Shown: positions 4,150 to 44,883 of the stretch, one piece after another
Numbering within the stretch: the stretch's first letter is position 1
How the letters are laid out: the number at the start of each line of letters is the position of its first letter
Source: an uncultured Candidatus Saccharibacteria bacterium
GTDB lineage: Bacteria; Patescibacteriota; Saccharimonadia; Saccharimonadales; Saccharimonadaceae
Length of the DNA: 52,835 nucleotides
Direction: 5' to 3'
Assembly (NCBI GenBank): GCA_946408595.1
Contig: CAMJSX010000006.1
Span: 1-52,835 of the forward strand
Notes under the pieces: generated by a model
What the model saw: only the letters and a program-made list of their open reading frames with translations
Database searches by the model: none
Told to the model about the DNA's origin: nothing
Translations under genes and position numbers: made by a program

Positions 4150-7044
4150 GTGACTATTAAAACAACTACAAAGATTGTTTTGTTGGGGGTACTAGTTTTG
4201 CTAGGCTCGATTGTTTCAAGCCAGGATGTTTTTGCTGAATCTAATATTTCGATTTCGATTTCTTCAAATAGTATGGCGTTTAACCTTTTACCTGGGGAGT
4301 TTGGTTCTGATTCCCAAACAATTACCGCTTCCACCACGGACAGTGAAGGTTATACCATTAAAATATCTACAACTGGGAGCTCTTCAAGTCTTGTAAATAT
4401 TGCCGACAGCTCTAAAACTATTCCAACTTTTTCGTTGCCATCTGGACAAGATAGTATCCCGTTTAATTCTCTTAGTGACGGGTATGGCTACAGTATTGAC
4501 AGTGGCATCAATTATTTGCCAGTACCAAGTCCTTCTGACGCAGCGAAAGTATTGTTTCGCACTAACGCTGCAGGACAAAATACACATACCTTGACTTTCG
4601 GCGTAAAAGTACCACTTGGCACAGTTGCGGGTACATATGAAAATACATTCGAAATACAGATTGTAGCTAATTTGCCGCCTTGTCCCAATGACAGCATTTG
4701 TTACTATGGAAATGGAGATGACGGCACTGGAACTATGTCAAATCAAACTGCCAGTTCTAATTCCGAAACGACATTAATCCCTTCAAATTTTTCGCGTAGT
4801 GGATATGGGTTTGCCGGATGGAATACCGCAATAGACGGTAGCGGGACCAACTATGGTCCAAACGAAACGATTACCACCGGCGATTTATCTACGCAGGGCA
4901 TGCAGTTGTACGCTAAATGGGTAGCCTCAGCTGGGAATTTCCAAGACTGGAATGGTTGCGATAATCTGAGCGCAGGGGACATCACCGCCCTTACTGATAC
5001 TCGTGACGGCAACACTTATGCCGTCGCTAAATACGCGGATGGTAACTGCTGGATGATGGAAAATCTTCGCCTGGATCTTTCGGACGAAAATCTAGTCATT
5101 AGCACGCAAAACACCAATAAACCAACTCAAGTATTTATGGAGAATATCAATCAAAATCACCCAAGTTCAACGAATAGTTTTTGCGCTTCGTCCACTGCTG
5201 CATGCGTGAACACGATAAAACATAATACCGATAACACCAATCGCGGATTAACTGCTTCCTATAACACTAACGACACGGCTACGTCATGGTATTCCTACGG
5301 TCATTATTATAATTGGCACACTATTACCGCTGGCAACGGCACCCTTGCAGGCTCTACGGCTGGTGCAACCGTCAGCGGTGACATCTGCCCATCCGGCTGG
5401 AGACTGCCAACTGGCTACGACATCACTGGTAACCTCGCAGAATTAGACATCGCTATGAACGGAAGTGGTATAAACCAAGCATCGGGTTCCACAGCAGGAC
5501 TTGCGGGTAGCAAACGTTGGCGTAAATATCCATTAAATTATATATATAGTGGTGAATATAAAACTACTGTATCGAACCGTGCTATATCAGCTAGTAGCGC
5601 CACACGTAATATAGCTAACACTGAGCGCACCATTAATCTTTGGCTTAAAACAGACGGAGTATATGTGAATTCTAATTTGACTTATAAGTACCGTGGGCAA
5701 ACTGCACGTTGTATTTTCCATGGTACCCAAAGCATAATAGGAACTATTCATTACGACCCAAACGGCGGAACTGGCACCATGGCAGACCAAATAAACGTTG
5801 ATTTTTATTCAGCAACGGCCGCGAACAATGGGTTCACCAAACAGCATGCCAGATTTAGTGGCTGGAACACTCAAGCAAATGGTGGAGGTGTAGCAGTAGC
5901 CGAAGGTGGCTCAGTACAAGATGCTGCTGAGCAATTGTCACTCACAGATGGAGATACTTTAAATCTTTACGCAATTTGGACCCCAATCTATAGTTTGATT
6001 TACAATGGTAACGGAGCCGATGCTGGTTCCATGAGCTCCGTTGATGTGGTTGATTCGTTGACGGCTGGCAAACTACGTCTAGTGGCCTCAAATTTCTCCA
6101 GAACTGGCTATGGCTTTGCTGGTTGGAGTTTGGATAATGACGCCGCTACCAAGCTTTTGAGTGGTACCCAGGTGAAAGTTTACGGACCAAACGAAGCAGC
6201 TGTAGTTGACAATGCATTTCTTGCCTATGCCGACGCCAATAACGAAATTAACTTATACGCTGTTTGGATACCTGCGGATACTAATTATACCTTACAAACA
6301 TTTACTTCCACCGAGTGTGGCGCCATGAGCATCGGCGACGTTACCGCACTAACTGACACACGCGATAGTAACACTTATGCCGTCGCCAAACTAGAAGATG
6401 GTAAATGTTGGACAATTGAAAACCTTCGCCTCGATCCGTCCACTACTACATTTGACAGCAATAATACCAATCTACCCACTCAAGACTTTATCGATGCGGC
6501 CTTAGTTTCCTCGACCAATAATACTCTCTGCAACCAATATACAACTGCTTGTGTAGACTCGGTTCGCTTCAATACGAACAATATCAACCGTAACAATACC
6601 GCATCACACGATTCCAATACAGTTAATAAATCATGGTATAGTTACGGCGTAATGTACAACTGGTATACAGCGTCAGCTGGCAACGGTAATCTTGCGATGG
6701 ATAATGGTAATGTAGCTGGGGATATTTGTCCTAAAGGTTGGCGTCTACCAACCGGCGGAAGTAACGGCGAATACACCAATCTAAATAGATTAGCAAACAA
6801 TAATTCCTCGATCGATACCGCAGGACTACTTAAATTCCCCGATAATTTCATTCTTTCCGGCGACTATAATTATAATGCTCCGGGCGGGCGCAACTCCTTC
6901 AGCCGCTTCTGGAGTGCCACACCCGATGGTACCCAAAAAGCTTTCCGGCTCGGTATTAATTATGGTGCTTCTAATAATGCAGTCACCCCAGCGGGTTCCT
7001 GGGGCAAATGGGATGCCTTTGCAGTGAGATGCATTGTGAAATAA
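4150..7044 (+). CDS. Secreted surface protein with InlB B-repeats and two FISUMP domains
   Basis: A large exported protein of 964 residues from GTG 4150. A signal peptide covers about residues 1-30 (Lys-rich start, LLGVLVLLGSIV core, likely cleavage after FAE). A beta-rich domain follows (30-180), then an InlB B-type repeat (181-259), a FISUMP domain (260-522, with CWMMENLRLD and a final ARC), two more InlB repeats (531-612 and 614-709) and a second FISUMP domain (716-964). There is no LPXTG motif or C-terminal membrane anchor. Such proteins are thought to be adhesins or surface decorations, and that role is inference. The start is uncertain: ATG 4127 has the better promoter spacing but is out of frame after an A7 tract. 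Confidence 0.85.
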   Translation: MTIKTTTKIVLLGVLVLLGSIVSSQDVFAESNISISISSNSMAFNLLPGEFGSDSQTITASTTDSEGYTIKISTTGSSSSLVNIADSSKTIPTFSLPSGQDSIPFNSLSDGYGYSIDSGINYLPVPSPSDAAKVLFRTNAAGQNTHTLTFGVKVPLGTVAGTYENTFEIQIVANLPPCPNDSICYYGNGDDGTGTMSNQTASSNSETTLIPSNFSRSGYGFAGWNTAIDGSGTNYGPNETITTGDLSTQGMQLYAKWVASAGNFQDWNGCDNLSAGDITALTDTRDGNTYAVAKYADGNCWMMENLRLDLSDENLVISTQNTNKPTQVFMENINQNHPSSTNSFCASSTAACVNTIKHNTDNTNRGLTASYNTNDTATSWYSYGHYYNWHTITAGNGTLAGSTAGATVSGDICPSGWRLPTGYDITGNLAELDIAMNGSGINQASGSTAGLAGSKRWRKYPLNYIYSGEYKTTVSNRAISASSATRNIANTERTINLWLKTDGVYVNSNLTYKYRGQTARCIFHGTQSIIGTIHYDPNGGTGTMADQINVDFYSATAANNGFTKQHARFSGWNTQANGGGVAVAEGGSVQDAAEQLSLTDGDTLNLYAIWTPIYSLIYNGNGADAGSMSSVDVVDSLTAGKLRLVASNFSRTGYGFAGWSLDNDAATKLLSGTQVKVYGPNEAAVVDNAFLAYADANNEINLYAVWIPADTNYTLQTFTSTECGAMSIGDVTALTDTRDSNTYAVAKLEDGKCWTIENLRLDPSTTTFDSNNTNLPTQDFIDAALVSSTNNTLCNQYTTACVDSVRFNTNNINRNNTASHDSNTVNKSWYSYGVMYNWYTASAGNGNLAMDNGNVAGDICPKGWRLPTGGSNGEYTNLNRLANNNSSIDTAGLLKFPDNFILSGDYNYNAPGGRNSFSRFWSATPDGTQKAFRLGINYGASNNAVTPAGSWGKWDAFAVRCIVK

Positions 7045-9052: not shown

Positions 9053-9079
9053 TAAATGGGTGTGGCAGAAAGAACGACT

Positions 9080-10138
9080 ATGGAATACAAAACCATCAAG
9101 GATGTAAATGTTAAAAACAAAGTAGTTTTAATGCGGGTAGATTATAACGTCCCCATGCAAGATGGTGCAGTAGCAGAAGATTTGCGCATCCGGGCTAGCC
9201 TACCAACTATAGAACTTTTACGCGAAAAAGGAGCAAATAAAATCATCCTCATTTCACACCTCGGCCGACCAGAAGGGCGAGACAAAAATCTGTCTCTAGC
9301 ACCAGTCGCAAAAGCTCTTGGTGAAATGATTCCTCAGGTAGCATTTATTAATGATGTATCTGGCCCCGATGTGGAAGCGGCGGTAGACAAACTACCAAAA
9401 GGCGGCATTTTGCTTCTCGAAAACCTACGTTTCTTTGCCGGTGAAGAAAAAAACTCGGATGATTTTATCCGCGAAATCATTGAATCAACCGGAGCTGAAT
9501 TATTCGTACAAGATGGCTTTGCCGTAGTTCATAGAGCGCATGCTTCGACTTCAGCGGTAGCCAATCATCTGCCAGTATATGCGGGTCTATTAGTTGAAAA
9601 AGAAGTTGTTAATTTAAAAAAAGTGATGGAAAAACCCGCCCGACCACTACTAATGATTATTGGTGGGTCAAAAGTTGAAGACAAAGAACCACTCATTGTT
9701 AAGTTTAAAACCATCGCCGACCAAATTGTGGTAGGTGGCAAAATCGCAGCAGATGGTTATAAAGCCAGCGACAAAGTATACGTCGCAGAAGATTTTGATG
9801 AAGATAGTACGGGCGCAAAACTTGATGTAGGACCTATATCTACCGCCAAAATCGCCAGCTACATTACCGACGCGAAGACCATCATTTGGAACGGTCTAAT
9901 GGGCAAAGCAGAAGATCCAGCCTACGCCACCGCATCAACCATTGTGGCAGAAATGATGGGTGAGAAAGAAGATGCCGAAACAATTATTTGTGGTGGTGAT
10001 ACTACTGGGTTCGTGGAAGCTTTAAGTGAAGAACATCCTAACCTGAAATATTCATTAGTTTCTACTGGCGGTGGTGCAGCCCTAGAATTCCTACTTGGCA
10101 AAGAACTACCAGGTCTAAGTGTAATTGAACTAAAATAA
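9080..10138 (+). CDS. pgk: Phosphoglycerate kinase, shortened C-terminal domain
   Basis: Transfers phosphate from 1,3-bisphosphoglycerate to ADP. Family motifs are in order: MRVDYNVPM, SHLGRPEGRD, LLENLRFFAGEE, HRAHAS, IIGGSKVEDK, IIWNGLMGK, CGGDTTGF and VSTGGGAALEFL. The start at 9080 gives the usual family N-terminus; ATG 9056 in the same frame is possible but adds eight unaligned residues, and neither has a clear Shine-Dalgarno site. At 352 residues it is about 35-45 shorter than most Pgk. The gap falls in the C-terminal nucleotide-binding domain between GGKIAADGYKA and VYVAEDF. It follows pyk by 27 bases. The substrate and nucleotide motifs are kept, so it should be active. Confidence 0.94.
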   Translation: MEYKTIKDVNVKNKVVLMRVDYNVPMQDGAVAEDLRIRASLPTIELLREKGANKIILISHLGRPEGRDKNLSLAPVAKALGEMIPQVAFINDVSGPDVEAAVDKLPKGGILLLENLRFFAGEEKNSDDFIREIIESTGAELFVQDGFAVVHRAHASTSAVANHLPVYAGLLVEKEVVNLKKVMEKPARPLLMIIGGSKVEDKEPLIVKFKTIADQIVVGGKIAADGYKASDKVYVAEDFDEDSTGAKLDVGPISTAKIASYITDAKTIIWNGLMGKAEDPAYATASTIVAEMMGEKEDAETIICGGDTTGFVEALSEEHPNLKYSLVSTGGGAALEFLLGKELPGLSVIELK

Positions 10139-10143
10139 TTTCT

Positions 10144-10156
10144 TGCATAATATGCA
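10144..10156. promoter_or_regulatory. Perfect palindrome TGCATAATATGCA, candidate operator of murA
   Basis: A 13-base perfect inverted repeat whose right end is 8 bases before the -10 box, so it covers the -35 region of the murA promoter. The MurA encoded next carries a helix-turn-helix domain, so self-binding at this site is a reasonable inference. It has not been shown. Confidence 0.5.
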
Positions 10157-10161
10157 TGTAG

Positions 10162-10170
10162 TGATATAAT
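10162..10170 (+). promoter_or_regulatory. Extended -10 promoter of XRE-murA
   Basis: TGA-TATAAT, followed by exactly 6 bases and the ATG at 10177, which predicts a leaderless transcript. Confidence 0.7.
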
Positions 10171-10176
10171 TTTTGT

Positions 10177-11727
10177 ATGAAAAAACCAAAGACTTATCAA
10201 GAAGCAATTGGCGAAGCAATTGAACAAATGCGTCTAGAAAAAGGCTGGACGCAGGGCGACTTGGCGAAAGAAGTAGGGACGAGTCAATCGGCAATTCATC
10301 GAATTGAAAAAGGCGGACAAAACGTTTCGCTAGAAATGATCAAAAAATTATCGGAGGCTTTAGGAAACCAAATCCTCTCTATCAATGACGCGGTTTCGCA
10401 AAGTTTTCGGATTCGTGGCGGCAAAGAACTTAGTGGCGAAATTACCATTAATACTTCCAAAAACGCTGCGGTAGGCTTACTTTGTGCGGCACTTTTGAAT
10501 TCCGGGAAAACGGTTCTTCACCGCGTAGCAAGAATCGAAGAAGTGTTTAGGATAATTGAAGTTTTGGAGTCAATCGGCGTAAAATGCCACTGGCAAAACC
10601 GCCATCGCGACTTAGAAATTATATCACCACGTGAATTGAAATTAGAAGAAATGGATATTGAAGCAGCCAGAAAAACGCGCTCAATTATCATGTTTTTAGG
10701 CCCCCTTCTTCATCGTTATCCGAAATTCAAGTTACCGTATGCAGGCGGTTGTTCGCTTGGCACGCGAACAGTAGAGCCACACATCCAGGCGCTCAAATCA
10801 TTTGGACTTGATGTAGATGCGGTATGTGAAAGTGGTTTTTATAACGTGAAAGTTAACCAGGATACTCTTAATAAATATACCGATAGATATATTGTGCTGA
10901 CTGAACGTGGCGATACGGTGACAGAAAACGTTTTAATGGCAGCTGCATTATCACCAGGACGTACTACCATTGTGGGTGCCTCACCAAACTATATGGTGCA
11001 AGATGTCTGTTTCTTCCTAGAAAAATTGGGCGTTAAAATCAGTGGGATCGGTACAACTACTTTAGTGGTACGAGGTAGGTCAAAGATTGACGAAGATGTC
11101 GAATACCATGTGTCAGAAGATCCAATTGAAGCGATGAGCTTCATTGCGGTGGGGTTAGTTACTAATTCGGAAATTGTGATTCGCCGCGCGCCAATCGAAT
11201 TTTTGGAAATTGAACTGGAAGTTTTAAAATCCATGAATGCCAGAATTGAAAAATCAGCCGAGTATTTATCGGCTAATGAACGGACACGCTTAGTAGATCT
11301 CACGGTCCATAAGTCCGACTTAGTCGCACCAGTAGACAAAATTCATCCGATGCCATTTCCTGGTCTCAATATTGATAACCTGCCATTCTTTTCCGTGATT
11401 GCCGCCGTGGCGGAAGGTCGTACTTTGATTCATGACTGGGTCTTTGAAAACCGTGCAGTATATACTACAGAACTTGCCAACTTAAATGCCAAAGTCGAAC
11501 TTCTTGATGCGCATCGCGTGTATATTGAAGGTCCAACCAATTGGCGACCAGCTGAAATGGTGGCACCACAAGCCCTGCGTCCAGCAGTCGTGGTTTTGAT
11601 TGGTATGTTAGCGGCACCAGGCACTTCAATTTTGCGTAATATTTATTCAATTAATCGTGGTTATCAAGATTTCGCCGCAAGGCTTAGACACCTCGGTGCG
11701 GATATCACACCGCTAACGGGGATTTAA
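10177..11727 (+). CDS. murA: XRE helix-turn-helix fused to UDP-GlcNAc 1-carboxyvinyltransferase (MurA)
   Basis: First committed step of peptidoglycan synthesis: transfer of enolpyruvate from PEP to UDP-GlcNAc. Of 516 residues, about 1-68 form a Cro/XRE helix-turn-helix (WTQGDLAKEVGTSQSAIHRI, then a third helix), and about 70-516 form MurA. The MurA part has the SKNAA substrate motif, the catalytic cysteine at C192 (GGCSLG), an Asp at the general-base position (NIDNL), VFENR, and the C-terminal RGY segment. Ordinary MurA is about 420 residues and lacks the DNA-binding part. The fusion is one uninterrupted frame starting 6 bases after a strong -10 box, with a palindrome upstream. pcrA begins on the next base after the stop, so they share a transcript. 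Confidence 0.93.
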   Translation: MKKPKTYQEAIGEAIEQMRLEKGWTQGDLAKEVGTSQSAIHRIEKGGQNVSLEMIKKLSEALGNQILSINDAVSQSFRIRGGKELSGEITINTSKNAAVGLLCAALLNSGKTVLHRVARIEEVFRIIEVLESIGVKCHWQNRHRDLEIISPRELKLEEMDIEAARKTRSIIMFLGPLLHRYPKFKLPYAGGCSLGTRTVEPHIQALKSFGLDVDAVCESGFYNVKVNQDTLNKYTDRYIVLTERGDTVTENVLMAAALSPGRTTIVGASPNYMVQDVCFFLEKLGVKISGIGTTTLVVRGRSKIDEDVEYHVSEDPIEAMSFIAVGLVTNSEIVIRRAPIEFLEIELEVLKSMNARIEKSAEYLSANERTRLVDLTVHKSDLVAPVDKIHPMPFPGLNIDNLPFFSVIAAVAEGRTLIHDWVFENRAVYTTELANLNAKVELLDAHRVYIEGPTNWRPAEMVAPQALRPAVVVLIGMLAAPGTSILRNIYSINRGYQDFAARLRHLGADITPLTGI

Positions 11728-13722
11728 ATGAACCCAATACTTGATGGTTTAAATCCGGAGCAGAAAAAAGCGGTAGAAACTTTAGAAGGACCGCTTCTGA
11801 TTTTGGCGGGAGCTGGTTCAGGAAAAACTAAAACCCTGACGCACCGGATTGCCAATTTGATTGCACACGGTGTGCAACCTTCGCACATTCTCGCAGTGAC
11901 TTTTACCAACAAAGCCGCCAATGAAATGCGCGAAAGATTAGCAAAACTATTAAACGTGCCACTCACCCGTTCGTTCATGCCTTACATGGGCACTTTTCAC
12001 GGCGTATGTGTCAAGATTTTGCGACAAGAAGCAGCAGCCGCCAACCTCGCGCGTGATTTTGTAATCTACGATACCGACGACCAAATATCTTTGATACGTC
12101 GCGTAATGAAAAACCTAGGAATTTCGGACAATAAAGCCTTAAAACCAAAGTCAGTACAGTCAATTATCTCGAGCGAAAAAAACCAAGGTAACGGGCCGGA
12201 AGAATATTTAGCTTCCGCCCTGTATCCGAATCAGCGAGACATTGCTAAAATATTCCGCGGCTACGAAGCAGAAAAGAAAAAAGCTGCCGCACTAGATTTT
12301 GATGATTTGTTGTTAAAGACCTTAGAACTATTCAGTAATAATCCAGAAGTGCGCGAAAAGTGGCAAAAAAAGTTTCAACACATTTTGATTGACGAGTATC
12401 AGGACACCAACATCATTCAATACCATTTAGTGAAGCTCTTAGTTGGACCAGAAAAAAATATTTGCGTGGTAGGGGATGACTGGCAATCAATTTATTCCTG
12501 GCGTGGTGCGGACTTTACCAACATCTTACATTTTGAACGCGATTTTCCTGGTGCCAAAGTTATTAAATTGGAGCAAAATTATCGCTCAACTGGCAACATC
12601 TTGGAAGCTTCGCAAAAAGTCATTGCGCACAACAAAACCCGCACTGAAAAAACTTTATTTACCGAAATCGGTAAAGGCGAACCAGTAGATATTGAATCCT
12701 TGCATGATGAAAATACGGAAGCTAGTTTCGTGGCGATGACGATTTTAAAAATGCAAAAAGATTTTCCGGACTTTGCCGACTTTGCAGTTTTGTATCGCAC
12801 CAACGCACAGTCGTATACGTTTGAAAACGCATTTATCAACTTGCATATTCCATACAAAATTGTTGGTGGCGTAAGATTTTATGATCGAAAAGAAGTTAAA
12901 GACGTGCTCGCAATACTAAAACTAATCGTGAATCAACGCGACAAAGTTTCCCTCGAACGCGTAGTTAAAAATGTTTTGTCCGGAATTGGTGAAGTGTCGC
13001 TAAAGAAAGTATTAATGGTAGTAGACGCGATAGACAGCGAAACGCCACTATTTGAACCAGATTTACCAGAAGTTTTAACCGCAGCCAAAGCCAAAAATGG
13101 TTTAATGCAACTAATTAATTTCCTGAAAAAAATCCGTAGTGAAACATTCCAAAACGCGGGTGAAATCGTGCAAAAAGTAGTTGAATATTTTGATTTTCGC
13201 AAACTCACCGACGATGGCACGCCAAGTAGTGAAGAACGTATGAAAAACCTGGAAGTCTTAGCAGGTAACGCGGCGGAGTATGATAACTTGGAGAATTTCT
13301 TGGCGGATGCGACTTTGATGTCATCGGCGGATGAAGCCTCCGGTCACAACGCAGTAACTTTAATGACGATGCACGCGGCAAAAGGTTTGGAATTTCCGGT
13401 GGTGTTTATGGTTGGGATGGAAGAAGGATTATTCCCGAGCTCCAGATCCTGCGACGATGAATCTGGTCTAGAAGAAGAACGTCGGCTAGCGTATGTGGGA
13501 ATGACTAGGGCAATGCGAAGATTGTTTTTGACTTACGCGGCTTCGAGATTTTCTTATGGTAGCCGAAACTATAGTATGCCATCACGATTCCTAACGGAAA
13601 TTGGCTACAATCCATACGGTTCTTCTAGCTATCGCGACCAAGACGGCGACGGTTTCACGGATGACGATTTTGAAAGCGACGATTTTGATCCTTTTCCACC
13701 AGACTTACCAGTGTATGAATAA
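11728..13722 (+). CDS. pcrA: UvrD/PcrA-type superfamily 1 DNA helicase
   Basis: ATP-driven 3'-5' DNA helicase used in repair and in clearing the replication path. Helicase motifs in order: Q motif and Walker A (AGAGSGKTKTL, residues 27-37), VTFTNKAANEM, LIDEYQDTN (Walker B), VVGDDWQSIYSWRGAD, EQNYRST, VTLMTMHAAKGLEFP and RLAYVGMTRAM. Length is 664 residues, slightly short for the family. The C-terminal 35 residues are unusually acidic (repeated Asp/Glu/Phe) and differ from the basic, Tudor-like tail of PcrA that binds RNA polymerase. The start codon abuts the murA stop, so translation is probably coupled. UvrD and PcrA cannot be told apart here. Confidence 0.95.
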   Translation: MNPILDGLNPEQKKAVETLEGPLLILAGAGSGKTKTLTHRIANLIAHGVQPSHILAVTFTNKAANEMRERLAKLLNVPLTRSFMPYMGTFHGVCVKILRQEAAAANLARDFVIYDTDDQISLIRRVMKNLGISDNKALKPKSVQSIISSEKNQGNGPEEYLASALYPNQRDIAKIFRGYEAEKKKAAALDFDDLLLKTLELFSNNPEVREKWQKKFQHILIDEYQDTNIIQYHLVKLLVGPEKNICVVGDDWQSIYSWRGADFTNILHFERDFPGAKVIKLEQNYRSTGNILEASQKVIAHNKTRTEKTLFTEIGKGEPVDIESLHDENTEASFVAMTILKMQKDFPDFADFAVLYRTNAQSYTFENAFINLHIPYKIVGGVRFYDRKEVKDVLAILKLIVNQRDKVSLERVVKNVLSGIGEVSLKKVLMVVDAIDSETPLFEPDLPEVLTAAKAKNGLMQLINFLKKIRSETFQNAGEIVQKVVEYFDFRKLTDDGTPSSEERMKNLEVLAGNAAEYDNLENFLADATLMSSADEASGHNAVTLMTMHAAKGLEFPVVFMVGMEEGLFPSSRSCDDESGLEEERRLAYVGMTRAMRRLFLTYAASRFSYGSRNYSMPSRFLTEIGYNPYGSSSYRDQDGDGFTDDDFESDDFDPFPPDLPVYE

Positions 13723-14229: not shown

Positions 14230-17200
14230 ATGCGGTTCATACACAAAAACCTTTTTGGGAAACAAACTTTGTCTAACTATATTTCCTATAAAAGAAATAG
14301 CCGTTTTGTTGGTATCTCATCTGTAGTTTTATTTAGTCTTCTTGCATTTACTATCTTATTCCCAGTACAAATCAAAACTGATTCGTCGTATGCTCGTACT
14401 GGCATGCTCGGTAACCCTAGCACTACTTCTCTTAACCTCACGCTCACTAATGATACTCTCGCACTAGATCTTGCTGCCACATCTTCTGCTGGCACCTTTG
14501 CGGCCTCTTCTCCGGCTAATTTCACTGTCTCTACCAATAATGTTTCGGGATATACACTAAGTATCAAATCTAAGGTTGTAAATCCTACTGACACTACAGA
14601 AATAACTAATGCCTCAAGATTAGTCAATACAGATGACGATACTAAGTATATCAGTAGCATTTCTAGCTCCCTCGCACCAGCCACCTTTTCAAATATCTCC
14701 AATACTCAATATAATAATCAATGGGGCTATAAACCAAGTAAACTAAACTCTAGTGATAATACCAACTACCTAGCAGCTCCAGACTATAATACTGCTACTA
14801 TACTAAATACTACTGGCTGTGCTAATGGTACTTCACCTTGCACTGATGCTTCAGATTCTTATAGCATCACTCTCGGTGCTAGAGTAGATAGTACTCTTCC
14901 TACCGGCACTTATGAGCATGCCTTCACCATTATCGCTATAGGTAATCCCATTAACTATAGCATTACCTACCACGCTAATGACGGTGCTAATGGTGCTAAT
15001 ACTACCAATATGCCTTCCCCCAACCCCCAGACTGGCAATGCTGCAAATGATATTACATCCATCAATCTAAGCACTACCAAACCCACCCGTTCTGGCTACG
15101 AATTAAAAGGCTGGTGCGATGTCCAACCAATAGCAGATACTAACTATCCAGACGACCAAGATTGTACTTCTGCTGGTGGTACCCTCTACCAACCAGGCGA
15201 TACCTTTGGTATAGACCAGACCACAGTAAACATTGTAGACCTCTACGCTACCTGGTGGCAACCAAACCTCACCAAACTTGATGGTCATACCATGCAGGAA
15301 ATGTCCCCAATGGCTTGCTATAACTCATCTATTAATGATACTGCTACCTTGACAGACAGTCGTGGAAAAGTGAGTCCCGAATCCCCCGAATCCTACACTA
15401 TCGCCAAACTTGCCGATGGCCTCTGCTGGATGACGACGAACCTAAATCTAGGTAAAAGCAATGGTAGTATTACTCTTACGCCAGAAGACACAGACATCAC
15501 TACTGACTTCACCCTCCCAGCCTCTCCGTCTAATTATTCTGCCACCAGCGATGCAACCAATATTAACACCCCAAATAATCTAAACAATCACACTATCGCT
15601 AGTCATACGGTCAATGGCGTCACTTATACTACCAGCGTAGCCTCTTACTATACTTACGCTGCAGCCACGGCAGATACTAGTACTTATAGTAAAAGTAGTG
15701 ATAGTTACGTTAATACTTCTATTTGCCCTAAAAATTGGGATCTCCCTACTGAATCTCAATATTTAAATCTCAGAACCAAAGGCTCCATTACCAGCGCCAA
15801 CACCGCCTTCGCTACTCCGTATACCTTCACCTATGGCGGCTGTAGAAATGGGACCAATTCCTTTTCTAATGAAACTAGCTATGGTTATTACTGGACTTCT
15901 AGAAATGTTAGTTCCACCTATGCTTACTGGACTAATGTGTCCAGTAGTGGTCTTTATAGCAACACTGCAACTTATTATAAATATTACGGTGCGATGATTA
16001 GATGTGTGGCTAGTAGTGGTACCGCCACAGTAAACTACAATGGCAACGGTACTACTGAACATCCAGTCACCGGCACTACTGCCGCTCAAGAGAATGTAGA
16101 AATTAATTCTACTATGGCCAAAGCAAATGGCTTCACTAGGACAGGTTGGTGGTTTAATGGTTGGAATACTGCGCCAGACGGCTCTGGTATCGCTATTGTG
16201 GCCAACGCTCCACTTTCTAACCTTGGCCTCGCTCCAGATAGCACAATTACCCTCTACGCCCAGTGGCTCCCACAATATACGATAACATATACCAACAACT
16301 GTAAATCTTGGGCTTCTTCAGATAGCAACTGTACTAATAACGCCTCAAATACTACTTCCACTCAAGCAATCAATCTCAACGCTTCCGGTAATGGCTCTGG
16401 TACCCTCGCCGCCTATAATGAGTTCTCTCTCATTGGCTGGAAGATTAAAGAATGGACTACTAATGCTGATGGTACTGGCACCGCTTACCCAGTAAGTAGT
16501 ACTTACAATGTCACTGGCGCTGGTGTCGGTGACGGTACCACTCTCTACGCCCACTGGGTCCCAGTCTACACTGTCCAATATGATGGTAATGGTGCAGACA
16601 ATCCTAATGGTATGGGTGTTGCTAATGCTACCACCGGTATTAAACCAGTCCGCCACTACAACGTCAGTGAAAGCGACACCTTTGATCTCTTTGCTTCTAA
16701 CTTCAAGCGTGACGGATATGGTTTCGTTGGCTGGAGTACAGATGCCAGTGCCTGGTCCCATCTTACGGATAATGATAATACCAATGACCCAAAGATTTGG
16801 GGCCCAAATGAAGTAATTACTGCTCCTGCTTACAATGGCACACCAATTACTACTCTTTATGCAGTCTGGGCTCCCGCTGAAAAAGATGGCAGTAATAACC
16901 CAGTCTATCTCCAAGGTTGGACTGGCTGCTCCGCTATGACTGCTACAACTTATAATTCTTCTACTGGCACTCTCACGGTAGCCAAGAATACCGTCACTGC
17001 CCTCACTGACAAGCGCGATGGTATGGTTTATGCTGTAGCTAAGCTAGCTGATGACAACTGTTGGATGATTGAAAACTTAAGATTAGACACTGCTGGCACT
17101 ATAGGTCAAAACACCATTGATAGTTCTGTTACTAATGAAAGTCTATCTCAGGGATATGGTGGTGTATTCCACGGCCTAGCTGACCCAGAAACAGGTAATT

Positions 17201-19092
17201 TTAGTAATGTAAACACTGCAAACTCTCTCTACACTACTGCTAGTGGTGTAACTGGTAAATACCAACTCACCATTGATAGCAGTTATTCTAGTTATCTTAA
17301 CTATCTCTTCCCCCGCTACAATAACACTAATATTACCTGGAATAATAATGCTTCTTCTGCCACTACCCCGACTGGACCTAGCCAAAACGTCACTTCAGCT
17401 TATGTCCACACTGATTACAACAACTACGTCTATTCTTACGGCAATTATTACACTTGGGCAGCTGCTATTGCTAGTACGAAGCACTATATCAATTATTACT
17501 ATACTAATGATAGTCGAGAATTATACCACTCCGATGCTGCACTTACCTCCATTTGTCCAGCAGGTTGGAAGTTGCCAAAAGGCGGATATCAGAACATCAG
17601 TGGTGCATTTCATTATCTAAATCAACAGATGGGGAAGAATACTTCAGCACAAGGCTCCAGAGAATGGCGGATGTTCCCAAACAATTTCGTTTACTCTGGG
17701 GAAAAGGGGAGCGGTCGGGGTAGGTCTGGTAAATATTGGTCATCTTCAGCGTATTCAGATATGGACTCGAAACTTTTATCTTTTAGTAGCTCTAACCTTC
17801 AGTATGATAGCAATTCCTATAAATACTATGGGCGCCCCGTGCGCTGTGTGATTGAAAACTTCTATAGTATATTATATGATGGTAATGGTACTACGGATGG
17901 TTCCATGTACGCTAGACATACTGAGCTTAACAGTGGCGACACCGTTGATCTCATTGCACCAAACTATGAAAAAACTGGTTATGGATTTGCTGGATGGTCC
18001 CCAAGCCCTACTGCCACTGTAGGTGGTACTGATCCAATCTATGGTCCAAATGAGACAATCACCATTTCTTCATCCATACTTAATCAATATGCGAATGATA
18101 GACGCCAAGTAGTTCTTTATGCAGTCTGGATAGCTAAAGAAACCAATGTGACGATGCAAACCTTTAATGCTACTAATTATGCTGCATATAATTCTGCTCC
18201 AATTGGTACAGTAATAGCACTAGAAGATACACGTGATAATGATGTATATGCTGTAGCTAAACTAGCAGATGGTAAATGGTGGATGATTGAAAACTTAAGA
18301 CTAGACAATACTGCTACAATAACCACCGCAAACACTCATAACCCACTAAACACTAACGGAACAGTTAATCTCAAAATAGATTATGCCAATAATACTATTG
18401 CTGACCACCTTGCCTCTACTAGTGATTCCTGGTGTACTAGGTATAATGCTGCTTGCTTTGACCAAACTATGCTAAACACCAACAACACTAACTATGGTGG
18501 TAAGAATGCTTCAAACACCGACCTTGTCCCAAATTACAATACCAATAATACTGCCACCGCCCAATGGTACGGTTACGGCAACTACTACAACTGGTATTCT
18601 GCTACTGCTGGTAATGGTACATATAGTTTCAGCACTAACAATAATTCCGTATCTGGTGACCTTTGTCCTGCAGGTTGGCATCTTCCACAAGGTGGACAAG
18701 CCTACGCAGAAGGTAACACTAGTGGTGTAAACGTGACAAATGACCCTTCCACCTACCGTGACTTCTATAATCTCGGTTACGTTCTAATGGGTAGTGTAGC
18801 ATATGAAAGCCAAGTAAATAGCGGCAACTCTTATTATGATAACACCCCAACAAACACGGCTGGTGATACTGCCACCAAAGCCTTCCGTAAGTTCCCGAAC
18901 AACTTTGTCTCATCCGGCTACTTCAGTGGCTCGTCTGCCTACTATCGCGGTTCCTACGGCTACTACTGGTCTAGCTCAGCCTACAATAGCTACTTCGCTT
19001 ACGCTCTGTACTTGGGCAGTGGCAACGTCTTCCCAGGTACTAGCCACTACAATAAGTACTACGGGCTTAGCGTCCGCTGTATATCGCAGTAG
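14230..19092 (+). CDS. Giant surface protein, five InlB B-repeats and three FISUMP domains
   Basis: A 1620-residue protein with a basic N-terminus and one hydrophobic segment at about 28-48, probably a signal peptide. A beta-rich Ser/Thr/Asn-rich domain (55-240) is followed by: InlB repeat (242-346), FISUMP (346-597), three InlB repeats (598-682, 683-777, 779-884), FISUMP (892-1210), InlB repeat (1212-1304), FISUMP (1307-1620). Each FISUMP ends in the typical RC motif. In the third, the conserved Cys before WMIENLRLD is Trp. No sortase motif or C-terminal anchor is seen. It shares its N-to-C logic with the 4150 protein. Role in host attachment is inferred. The last about 200 bases are richer in GC than the rest of the gene. 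Confidence 0.88.
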   Translation: MRFIHKNLFGKQTLSNYISYKRNSRFVGISSVVLFSLLAFTILFPVQIKTDSSYARTGMLGNPSTTSLNLTLTNDTLALDLAATSSAGTFAASSPANFTVSTNNVSGYTLSIKSKVVNPTDTTEITNASRLVNTDDDTKYISSISSSLAPATFSNISNTQYNNQWGYKPSKLNSSDNTNYLAAPDYNTATILNTTGCANGTSPCTDASDSYSITLGARVDSTLPTGTYEHAFTIIAIGNPINYSITYHANDGANGANTTNMPSPNPQTGNAANDITSINLSTTKPTRSGYELKGWCDVQPIADTNYPDDQDCTSAGGTLYQPGDTFGIDQTTVNIVDLYATWWQPNLTKLDGHTMQEMSPMACYNSSINDTATLTDSRGKVSPESPESYTIAKLADGLCWMTTNLNLGKSNGSITLTPEDTDITTDFTLPASPSNYSATSDATNINTPNNLNNHTIASHTVNGVTYTTSVASYYTYAAATADTSTYSKSSDSYVNTSICPKNWDLPTESQYLNLRTKGSITSANTAFATPYTFTYGGCRNGTNSFSNETSYGYYWTSRNVSSTYAYWTNVSSSGLYSNTATYYKYYGAMIRCVASSGTATVNYNGNGTTEHPVTGTTAAQENVEINSTMAKANGFTRTGWWFNGWNTAPDGSGIAIVANAPLSNLGLAPDSTITLYAQWLPQYTITYTNNCKSWASSDSNCTNNASNTTSTQAINLNASGNGSGTLAAYNEFSLIGWKIKEWTTNADGTGTAYPVSSTYNVTGAGVGDGTTLYAHWVPVYTVQYDGNGADNPNGMGVANATTGIKPVRHYNVSESDTFDLFASNFKRDGYGFVGWSTDASAWSHLTDNDNTNDPKIWGPNEVITAPAYNGTPITTLYAVWAPAEKDGSNNPVYLQGWTGCSAMTATTYNSSTGTLTVAKNTVTALTDKRDGMVYAVAKLADDNCWMIENLRLDTAGTIGQNTIDSSVTNESLSQGYGGVFHGLADPETGNFSNVNTANSLYTTASGVTGKYQLTIDSSYSSYLNYLFPRYNNTNITWNNNASSATTPTGPSQNVTSAYVHTDYNNYVYSYGNYYTWAAAIASTKHYINYYYTNDSRELYHSDAALTSICPAGWKLPKGGYQNISGAFHYLNQQMGKNTSAQGSREWRMFPNNFVYSGEKGSGRGRSGKYWSSSAYSDMDSKLLSFSSSNLQYDSNSYKYYGRPVRCVIENFYSILYDGNGTTDGSMYARHTELNSGDTVDLIAPNYEKTGYGFAGWSPSPTATVGGTDPIYGPNETITISSSILNQYANDRRQVVLYAVWIAKETNVTMQTFNATNYAAYNSAPIGTVIALEDTRDNDVYAVAKLADGKWWMIENLRLDNTATITTANTHNPLNTNGTVNLKIDYANNTIADHLASTSDSWCTRYNAACFDQTMLNTNNTNYGGKNASNTDLVPNYNTNNTATAQWYGYGNYYNWYSATAGNGTYSFSTNNNSVSGDLCPAGWHLPQGGQAYAEGNTSGVNVTNDPSTYRDFYNLGYVLMGSVAYESQVNSGNSYYDNTPTNTAGDTATKAFRKFPNNFVSSGYFSGSSAYYRGSYGYYWSSSAYNSYFAYALYLGSGNVFPGTSHYNKYYGLSVRCISQ

Positions 19093-42398: not shown

Positions 42399-43670
42399 AT
42401 GAAACACACTGTTGAAGAAGTACAATTAAAAAATGGTGCGCACGGGCTTTTAATTGATATACCCGGTGCGAGCGTAATGTCGACAAGAATACAATTCCGC
42501 GCAGGCATGATGTATGCCAAAAATCACGAGGTTTATGAAATCCCACACGTAGTAGAGCATTTAGCTTTTGGTGCGAATGCAAAATTCCGTGACGAACAAG
42601 CCTTTGAAGCAGAGTTCACTAAAAATGGCGCCTATCATAACGCTTGGACCTCAGATATTTCAGTATGTTATGAGACGGAATGCGCAGATTTTGAATGGGA
42701 TAGGATTATGGAGCTCCAAAGAGTTTCAATTTGCGAGCCAAAATTCAATGAAGAAGAATTAAAATCCGAGAAAGCCAATGTGAAATCAGAACTCACTGGC
42801 TACATGAACGATTATTATCGTTTGCTTTGGCCACGTGTTCAACAGGCAGTTGGTGAAGACATTCTGGATTTGCCAGAAAGAATCAAGACGATCCAAAATA
42901 TTGATTTGAAAGATATTCGGGAGCACTACCGCCGTACTCATACCGCAAAAAATATGCTCTTTATTATTGCTGGTAAAATTCACGGCAGAAAGCATAAGAT
43001 AATCCGAGAATTAGAAGCTTGGCCATTAAAAGAAGGCGAAAAATTCGAAATTCCACGCGCAGATCTTCACTCTTCAGAGGCCGTGTCAATCAGAAGAAAA
43101 GACGCTTCAAATATCACCTTTGGTTTTTCTCTAGTTACACCGAGGCATCTAGATCCAAAAGAAGTCTTCACGATGAACTGTTTGAACCATATTCTAAACG
43201 GCACCACCAACTCAAAAATCTTTGGGATGGCACGAAAACGCGGATTAGTTTATGGTATGGGGAGCTCAATTGCTTCAAATGCCCACAATTCATATTGGGA
43301 TTTTGACGGGGAGGTTAATGTCGAAAACGCCGAAGAATTGTTCGCCCTCATCCAAACTGAAATGATGAAAGTCCTAAATGGTGAAGTATCAGAAGCGGAT
43401 TTTGAGGCCGCTAAACTCTATGCTCTCGGGCGTTTGCAAATGGGCGCACAAACCGTCGGACAGATTGCAGACTATTATGCCGAGAATTACTTTACCAACG
43501 AATCAGTTGAAAAATACGACAACATGCCAAACCTCATTAAATCAATCGATCGTGGACAAATGATTGAACTCGCAAGAGAATTTGCCGGATCAGGAATTAA
43601 AGGTTTTGCCACCGTATCATCTGTAGAAAAAGCGATGATTTCTAATTTAGAGACTCGATTAAATTTTTAA
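42399..43670 (+). CDS. M16 family zinc peptidase
   Basis: A 423-residue pitrilysin/mitochondrial-processing-like protease. The inverted zinc motif HVVEH is at residues 50-54 (H50, E53, H54), and the distal Glu ligand is in the helix EELKSEKANVKSEL. The second half is the inactive-like M16 repeat with the substrate-binding RGLVYGMGSSI. It begins 18 bases after secA, so it may be on the secA transcript; a role in clearing signal peptides or exported fragments is only inference. Its 3' end overlaps the opposite murD by 29 bases. Confidence 0.93.
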   Translation: MKHTVEEVQLKNGAHGLLIDIPGASVMSTRIQFRAGMMYAKNHEVYEIPHVVEHLAFGANAKFRDEQAFEAEFTKNGAYHNAWTSDISVCYETECADFEWDRIMELQRVSICEPKFNEEELKSEKANVKSELTGYMNDYYRLLWPRVQQAVGEDILDLPERIKTIQNIDLKDIREHYRRTHTAKNMLFIIAGKIHGRKHKIIRELEAWPLKEGEKFEIPRADLHSSEAVSIRRKDASNITFGFSLVTPRHLDPKEVFTMNCLNHILNGTTNSKIFGMARKRGLVYGMGSSIASNAHNSYWDFDGEVNVENAEELFALIQTEMMKVLNGEVSEADFEAAKLYALGRLQMGAQTVGQIADYYAENYFTNESVEKYDNMPNLIKSIDRGQMIELAREFAGSGIKGFATVSSVEKAMISNLETRLNF

Positions 43671-44883
43671 ACTGAGCACCACGGTCGTAGACATTCTCAA
43701 ACATATCAAATGAAGCAGCAGCCGGCGACATAATCACGATTGCTGGATGCTCTTCAGAAGTGATGGCTTCTGCTTCGAGTCGGGCAGCGGAAATTGCCGC
43801 GGAAAGACTATTCGCTAAGCGAAAACGTGGATCAGGGTATCTTTTTGCTAGCTCGTGACCAGATTCGCCAATCAAAATGATTTTCTTCACCTGAGGAGCC
43901 TTCAAAATATCGTAAACTTCCGGGAGATCTTCGTAATTAGTCTTATCACGACCACCAACGATCACCACAAGCTCATCATTCGAAAACGCATCCACGGCAA
44001 CCTTAGTTGACGAAGGATTAGTGGCAAAATTATCATCATAGTATTTGACGTGATTATATTCACGAAGGAATTCTAGGCGATGAGGCAGGCCATGGAAGTT
44101 TTTGAGACCTTCTATTATCTCATTTTTGAAGTCCCTTAAATATTCATCTGGTGATATATTTTTATAACAAGCGACCGCAGCGATAGCCGCAATGGCGTTG
44201 TTGATATTATGCTCACCGGGTAGGCTGACGGCTTCCCTAATCTCATCAGGGATACTAAAAGGATAAGGAATCATCTTAGCTTTAGAATCACGAACAAGCT
44301 GCAGCGTCTCAAGGTTATCTTTAAAATAAATACAGTAATCCTCGGGAGCTTGGAAACGACAAATATTCGCCTTGGCAGCCAAATAATCTGCGTAATCTTT
44401 ATGAATGTTTAAATGGTCAGGCTCCAGATGGCCCACGATAGCGATATGAGGTGATTTTTGAAGATCCCAAAGTTGAAAACTGGACATCTCATAAACCACT
44501 ACGGAGCTAGGTTTTAACTGGTCTAGCATATCAATGGCCGGCTCACCAATATTTCCAACTAGATAAGCACCCTCGTGATGGGCATCAAGCAGAGACTTAA
44601 CAAATGAGCAGGTAGTACCTTTACCCTTAGTAGCCGTTACCCCGATAATTGGGCACGGACAATGGTCAAAAAAATATTTTGTGACGCTAGATTCATTTGG
44701 AAGATGGAGTGGTGGCACCGACGGACTCCGGAAAACTATATCATAGGATGAATAATCCTTCTTGGAAATTTCATCGTAAGTAAAGTTTTCAAACACATCA
44801 ATTTCGACGTCGTCAAAATGGTTTTTAAAATATTTTTCAGTGGATTGGCCTTCTTTGCCATATCCGAGTAATGCGATTTTCAT
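43642..44883 (-). CDS. murD: UDP-N-acetylmuramoyl-alanine--D-glutamate ligase
   Basis: Adds D-Glu to the peptidoglycan precursor. The 413 residues start with a Rossmann-like MKIALLGYGKEGQST domain, then the Mur ligase P-loop written VTATKGKGTTCSF (instead of the usual TNGKTT/ST), the metal-binding region VVYEMSSFQLWDL, the Lys to be carbamylated in YLAAKANICRF, HNINNAIAAIA, LPHRLE, and the C-terminal DNFATNPSSTKVAVDAF. This matches MurD better than MurC/E/F. It is transcribed with dus upstream (4-base ATGA overlap). The P-loop variant keeps the Lys and Thr that bind ATP. Confidence 0.9.
   Translation of the reverse strand: MKIALLGYGKEGQSTEKYFKNHFDDVEIDVFENFTYDEISKKDYSSYDIVFRSPSVPPLHLPNESSVTKYFFDHCPCPIIGVTATKGKGTTCSFVKSLLDAHHEGAYLVGNIGEPAIDMLDQLKPSSVVVYEMSSFQLWDLQKSPHIAIVGHLEPDHLNIHKDYADYLAAKANICRFQAPEDYCIYFKDNLETLQLVRDSKAKMIPYPFSIPDEIREAVSLPGEHNINNAIAAIAAVACYKNISPDEYLRDFKNEIIEGLKNFHGLPHRLEFLREYNHVKYYDDNFATNPSSTKVAVDAFSNDELVVIVGGRDKTNYEDLPEVYDILKAPQVKKIILIGESGHELAKRYPDPRFRLANSLSAAISAARLEAEAITSEEHPAIVIMSPAAASFDMFENVYDRGAQFKNLIESLN

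Follow-up and report, generated by a model that had tools for sequence, protein, structure and literature searches.

A HipB-like helix-turn-helix domain fused to MurA in Saccharibacteria: a probable cell-wall enzyme and predicted repressor of its own gene

MurA, which carries out the first committed step of peptidoglycan synthesis, is normally a protein of about 420 amino acids. In a stretch of 52,835 nucleotides from an uncultured Candidatus Saccharibacteria bacterium (assembly GCA_946408595.1, contig CAMJSX010000006.1, positions 1 to 52,835 of the forward strand; hereafter the window), one open reading frame codes for a longer protein, in which a Cro/XRE helix-turn-helix (HTH) domain precedes the MurA part. 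The question raised by this locus is whether the enzyme also binds DNA and, if so, which DNA and with what effect.

An earlier note on this DNA had described an unbroken frame with an HTH at about residues 1-68 and a complete MurA with its catalytic cysteine at position 192. These boundaries are borne out by the reading frame itself (ATG start, 516 codons, no internal stop), by Pfam and by alignment with E. coli MurA, and the features are collected in Table 1. The HTH_3 profile covers residues 15-63 (E 6e-15) and EPSP_synthase (PF00275) covers residues 80-502 (E 4e-48), the EPSP-synthase/MurA fold extending over the full length. The NCBIfam MurA subfamily NF006873 matches residues 75-511 (E 1e-97) with 327 bits and passes its cut-off of 297. 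The score against the equivalog TIGR01072 is 305.5 bits, under the cut-off of 392.7, and the MurA part is therefore a divergent member of the MurA subfamily and not the equivalog. It is confirmed that a HipB-like Cro/XRE HTH (about residues 9-66) and a complete MurA (about 75-513) stand in one chain.

Table 1. Features of the HTH-MurA locus, in positions of the window.
Feature	Position	Strand	Basis
Phosphoglycerate kinase (pgk) gene, upstream	9056..10138	+	ORF, by inspection
Probable -35 hexamer TTGCAT, spacer 16	10143..10148	+	Sequence; TTTACA/TTGACA-like in genus relatives
Predicted operator TATGCATGTAGTGATATA (own-genus form TATKCAYNNNGTGATATA of TATAYC-N6-GRTATA)	10151..10168	+	Position and right arm common to fused relatives
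-10 hexamer TATAAT with TG extension; ATG 6 nt downstream (10177)	10165..10170	+	Sequence; same layout in relatives
HTH-MurA fusion gene, 516 aa	10177..11727	+	ORF, Pfam, NCBIfam
HipB-like Cro/XRE HTH domain, residues 1-68	10177..10380	+	HTH_3 E 6e-15; structural relatives; model helices
Recognition helix T35-S36-Q37-S38-A39-I40-H41-R42-I43-E44	10279..10308	+	Conservation; residue 36 covaries with operator
MurA domain, residues 76-513	10402..11715	+	Pfam, NCBIfam, Foldseek
Catalytic Cys192 (= E. coli Cys115)	10750..10752	+	Alignment with E. coli MurA
UvrD/PcrA-like helicase gene, directly adjoining the HTH-MurA stop with no base between	11728..13722	+	ORF/translation; function by inspection

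Using an alignment of 109 sequences, an AlphaFold2 model was built that has a mean pLDDT of 93.7. The HTH is mostly at 88-96, with its helices (residues 7-21, 26-33, 37-44 and 52-62) at high confidence, and the linker, residues 61-80, is weaker (73-79). The solved natural relatives closest to the HTH include HipB, SinR and the 434 repressor. For the MurA part, a Foldseek comparison with MurA crystal structures gave TM scores (target) of 0.87-0.93, the value for 1uae (UDP-N-acetylglucosamine enolpyruvyl transferase, EC 2.5.1.7) being 0.93 at 28% identity. The likeness to MurA extends to most of the tested catalytic residues: K22, N23, R91, C115, R120, D305, R331, R371 and R397 (E. coli numbers) are kept in the query, in all 119 fused homologues and also in the 17 unfused sisters, with the catalytic cysteine present in 119/119 and 17/17 in the alignment with E. 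coli MurA. The differences from MurA are the extra N-terminal HTH, the TIGR01072 score below cut-off, an altered uridine-contact loop, and the replacement of Asp369 (E. coli) by P, S or Q; the last two are common to fused and unfused members of the subfamily alike. Position 369 is variable in this subfamily; with the Asp replaced, normal activity is not certain, and the MurA assignment rests on the other features. In standard unfused MurAs (L073-L096), mostly from other orders of the class, the position of Cys115 is occupied by Asp in 16 of 18.

The fused protein is the sole PF00275 (EPSP-synthase/MurA-family) protein in the genome, which has 737,758 bases and is 99% complete. MurB was found in the same genome, and a search for Mur ligases gave five matches, four of them above the cut-off. 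Since MurB and the Mur ligases are present, a MurA is needed, and HTH-MurA is the only candidate; we infer from this that the fused protein has MurA activity.

The architecture is widespread. Matches to the query protein were found in 95 of 101 genomes of the family, most of them spanning both domains, and in 143 of 149 genomes of the order. In family and order alike, nearly all genomes have full-length fused homologues, at 48-100% identity; counted together, full-length homologues with both domains occur in about nine in ten genomes of family and order, single-contig genomes included. The earlier note had allowed that relatives may exist in other Saccharibacteria, which turns out to be an understatement, as almost all sampled genomes of the order have the fusion and several other lineages of Patescibacteria have it too. 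It had also considered that the fusion might be confined to this assembly, and the protein homologue search places it in more than 100 independent genomes, some of them single-contig. In the other orders of this class the MurAs are of the standard unfused type (26-30% identity), and a MurA subfamily from the rest of the phylum (about 42-57% identity) holds both fused and unfused members. Among the best 80 loci of a named-genome scan, the fusion is found in records labelled Saccharibacteria/Saccharimonadia, Doudna-, Taylor-, Nomura-, Kaiser-, Uhr- and Kerfeldbacteria, whereas Zambryski- and Jorgensenbacteria have unfused sisters; fusions may also exist outside Patescibacteria. One match labelled Acidimicrobiia (L280) nests among the Saccharibacteria in the tree, and its bin was probably mislabelled.

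In the tree of the MurA domain, unfused lineages stand at the base of the subfamily and nine changes of HTH presence are needed. With the direction inferred from the outgroup, this is consistent with an early gain of the HTH followed by several losses; loss or decay of the HTH took place several times among relatives, and unfused sister MurAs exist. Where it is present, the HTH is under purifying selection, with a dN/dS of about 0.05 in the HTH and in the MurA part alike (14 unsaturated pairs) and changes mostly at third codon positions. In the recognition helix of the fused proteins, Q37 is kept in 117, S38 in 118, R42 in 116 and E44 in all of 119.

Upstream of the fused genes, an inverted repeat, TATATCA-N4-TGATATA, was found to recur over the -10 box, mostly 26-33 bp before the ATG. 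More than 150 species were compared, and the 18-bp pattern TATAYC-N6-GRTATA was scored up to 120 bp upstream, with at least 10 of the 12 positions matching. At this threshold the pattern is present before 110 of 119 fused genes, compared to 6 of 178 other genes in the same loci, 0 of 17 unfused sisters and 0 of 19 standard murA genes. The spacer of 6 is special, in that 75 genes reach at least 11/12 with it and 0-8 with other spacers. It is important to point out that GRTATAAT doubles as an extended -10 box, and the left arm was therefore scored given the right arm: at spacer 6 from a GRTATA it is present in 69 of 112 cases in fused genes and in none of 17 control occurrences. Apart from this left arm and the covariation described below, the signal is subject to promoter constraint. 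Some of the sequences counted had also served to define the motif, and the sampling is phylogenetically clustered with start codons assigned automatically; a fairer test is given by the best 80 loci of the named collection, partly overlapping with the first set, which show the palindrome again.

In the family genomes, exact ATATCA-N4-TGATAT occurs about once per genome, repeatedly in the murA promoter. Across the order the murA promoter is likewise the dominant place of the strict pattern (about 33 of 46), the remaining matches being scattered and, by estimate, about as frequent as chance. Recurrent matches inside coding sequence were discounted, since they stem from protein motifs: NISLDM, which is part of the HTH, and KYSSGDINI, from a MurE-like gene. 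Of the 125 intact fusions in the tree, 18 are without the site by the fixed criterion; some of these have a short upstream region or a different spacer (7 in L033). With decayed HTHs the site is absent (L051, L054, L256 and L282), and in about 6.5 of 7 independent tree pairs the operator is present where the HTH is intact and absent where it is not (median p 0.016).

The sequence of the site was also found to vary with the recognition helix. Residue 36, the second of T-S-Q-S, aligns with the Lys of I-K-Q-A in HipB. Among intact fusions, Ser36 goes with a GRTATA half-site in 136 cases and with GCTATA in 3, and Thr36 with GCTATA in 22 and GRTATA in none (Fisher 3e-24, with relatedness ignored). 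The residue changes about four times on the tree, which is too few for a phylogeny-corrected p-value; two supported independent pairs give 1.7 the same way and 0 opposite, and L042 has one switch among relatives of the other state. Since the site follows the presence of the HTH and the half-site follows residue 36, the promoter of its own gene is most likely bound, and most likely repressed, by the HTH. The proposal that the enzyme also binds DNA has strong support, all of it from sequence comparison, with the palindrome counts and the covariation pointing to its own promoter as the target.

In the genus of the query, the left arm has diverged and is no longer part of a clean palindrome (TATKCAY-N3-GTGATATA). 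Most murA genes in the genus have TATKCAY-N3-GTGATATAAT or something close to it in front of them, with L194, L198 and L201 among those that differ, and the left arm of the predicted operator is conserved in most of the genus. Operator and promoter are both contained in the 38-bp gap between pgk and murA. With the ATG so close to the -10 hexamer, the HTH-MurA mRNA is probably leaderless. The helicase gene downstream is probably co-transcribed. A first candidate for the operator, the 13-bp perfect palindrome TGCATAATATGCA (10144..10156, no strand assigned), overlaps the -35 hexamer; it is not conserved in relatives and is probably incidental. The pyk-pgk-murA-uvrD-rnhA block is flanked by repetitive surface-type proteins at 4150-7044 (964 aa) and 14230-19092 (1620 aa).

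The own-genus motif has five exact occurrences in the genome, compared to an estimated 0.02 expected and none for the reversed control. One is at murA and one at tsaD (L283), two are in small-RNA-like promoters (L284, L285), and the fifth is inside a murD-like gene of the window (44141-44158); the tsaD and small-RNA-element sites recur in other species of the genus. Before tsaD the motif lies about 9 bp from the start codon (L283:1501-1518 in this genome; L310 and L314 in two other species of the genus). The murD-like gene (43642-44883) has a further copy with one mismatch at 44737-44754, and both matches in this gene may be coding coincidences. For murB, genome G010 has a canonical operator (12/12) 10 bp before the gene (L328, near 1477-1508) and G028 and G029 have 11/12 matches (L343; L353), and murB genes are mostly without a site (3 of 21 scored reach at least 11/12). 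We regard the tsaD, small-RNA and murB sites as leads for a small regulon, not as established targets.

The small-RNA-like element is a conserved unit of about 75 nt, with a TTGACA promoter that carries the own-genus motif, a hairpin loop ACTGCGAGG and, in most copies, a hairpin resembling an intrinsic terminator. Copies are at L285:1454-1753 (C4 of this genome, near 56297) and L284:1266-1565 (C1, near 178370), with further ones in L298, L299, L304, L306, L309, L315, L320 and L324, often near tRNA-Ala/Ile genes or a KGG-type gene. A search of four loci gave no convincing Rfam match. Two other repeats were observed. A perfect palindrome, ATATCATATATGATAT, lies between divergent Sua5/TsaC-like and RNA-methyltransferase-like genes (L102:2177-2192; C5:49176 of this genome). 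An identical 16-mer, ATATCACAAATGATAT, is present in three genomes (L103, L104, L105, L106), in L103-L105 near exported-looking genes, and may belong to another regulator.

Taking these results together, we consider it very likely that HTH-MurA both functions as a MurA and represses the gene that encodes it. In the proposed mechanism, the two HTH heads of a presumed dimer would bind the 18-bp inverted repeat covering the -10 box. Once enough HTH-MurA is present, RNA polymerase would be blocked just before the start codon of the probably leaderless mRNA, so that the entry step of wall synthesis would be kept under homeostatic control with no separate regulator. The supported steps are the fusion, the conserved catalytic residues, the sole MurA copy, the conserved HTH and the coupling of operator and HTH; binding would presumably be dimeric and repressing rather than activating, and any switching by PEP, UDP-GlcNAc or UDP-MurNAc would be a further, conjectural step. 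Negative autoregulation is favoured because a palindrome over the -10 box is in a typical repressor position and because there is a precedent in HipB, whose HTH is homologous (E about 1e-5) and which autorepresses its own operon via TATCC-N8-GGATA, also 18 bp (PMC3376134, PMC3920265). The predicted operator of HTH-MurA likewise has TAT...ATA ends and lies at its own promoter. HipB, however, is a small antitoxin with the HipA toxin as partner, whereas the fused HTH is covalently joined to a biosynthetic enzyme and has pgk and uvrD as neighbours.

Autorepression could be extended by ligand gating, in which UDP-GlcNAc/PEP or UDP-MurNAc in the active site would rearrange the HTH so that promoter binding reports the metabolic state. 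MurA opens and closes on its substrate, and here such a sensor-capable enzyme is physically fused to a DNA-binding head, kept across an order, through a short linker of lower model confidence. No coupling is visible in the sequence or the model, however, dose-dependent autorepression needs no ligand effect, and the domains could be insulated from each other by the linker. The data are explained as well by ligand-free negative autoregulation as by a PEP/UDP-GlcNAc-dependent trigger enzyme, and we give gating appreciable but not prevailing weight. Another option considered is that the HTH activates, or governs a small regulon of murA, tsaD, the small RNA and, in some lineages, murB. The recurrence of the own-genus motif in several species and the murB sites in G010, G028 and G029 speak for it, but the position over the -10 box is that of a repressor, the other strict matches are at about chance frequency by estimate, and most murB genes have no site; this we find somewhat doubtful. 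In a more far-reaching reading, wall synthesis in Saccharibacteria and related Patescibacteria would have HTH-MurA as its substrate-gated master switch. Bound substrate or product would set whether it represses the operon it belongs to and, within this genus, tsaD and an undescribed small RNA of about 75 nt as well, so that growth would be tied to the supply of wall precursors in cells that have very few regulators. We consider this unlikely.

The palindrome could also be bound by a separate, stand-alone regulator, the fused HTH serving dimerisation or localisation. Other XRE proteins are indeed present in some genomes (weak matches), but paralogues similar to the fused HTH occur in few, and both the presence and the sequence of the site track the fused HTH and its recognition-helix residue, which makes this scenario very improbable. 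Finally, the fusion could be an artefact of mis-assembly, or of an internal start yielding a MurA of the normal length with no HTH. The earlier note had considered a possible start near residue 68, but no in-frame ATG, GTG or TTG is found between Met54 and the MurA domain, and the promoter lies directly before the HTH start codon. Together with the number of independent genomes and the selection on the HTH, this leaves the artefact with a practically negligible probability.

Autoregulation by HTH-MurA can be compared with other systems. PutA, BirA and NadR are trigger enzymes with a built-in DNA-binding domain that act on their own or their pathway's promoter, with ligand control shown, and BzdR is an XRE HTH fused to a shikimate-kinase-like domain that serves as sensor. 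Like the former three, the fusion would, judging from its sequence, unite enzyme and DNA-binding regulator in one chain; unlike it, however, none of them is a cell-wall enzyme, and the ligand control shown for them would be conjectural for HTH-MurA. With BzdR it shares the XRE head on an enzyme-type fold, but the fold is another one, and HTH-MurA keeps its catalytic residues and is the sole MurA. Autoregulators of the HTH-enzyme type are a known kind, and in the open-access literature we found no HTH-MurA or MurA trigger enzyme, and thus no characterised precedent for the MurA example.

If the proposed autorepression is true, peptidoglycan synthesis would begin with an enzyme that bears its own promoter switch across a large and mostly uncultured branch of bacteria, which would help to explain how minimal genomes control wall synthesis. 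It would also mean that a regulator, its operator and a specificity residue have been predicted for Patescibacteria from sequence alone, and would offer a ready test system consisting of one protein and one 18-bp site.
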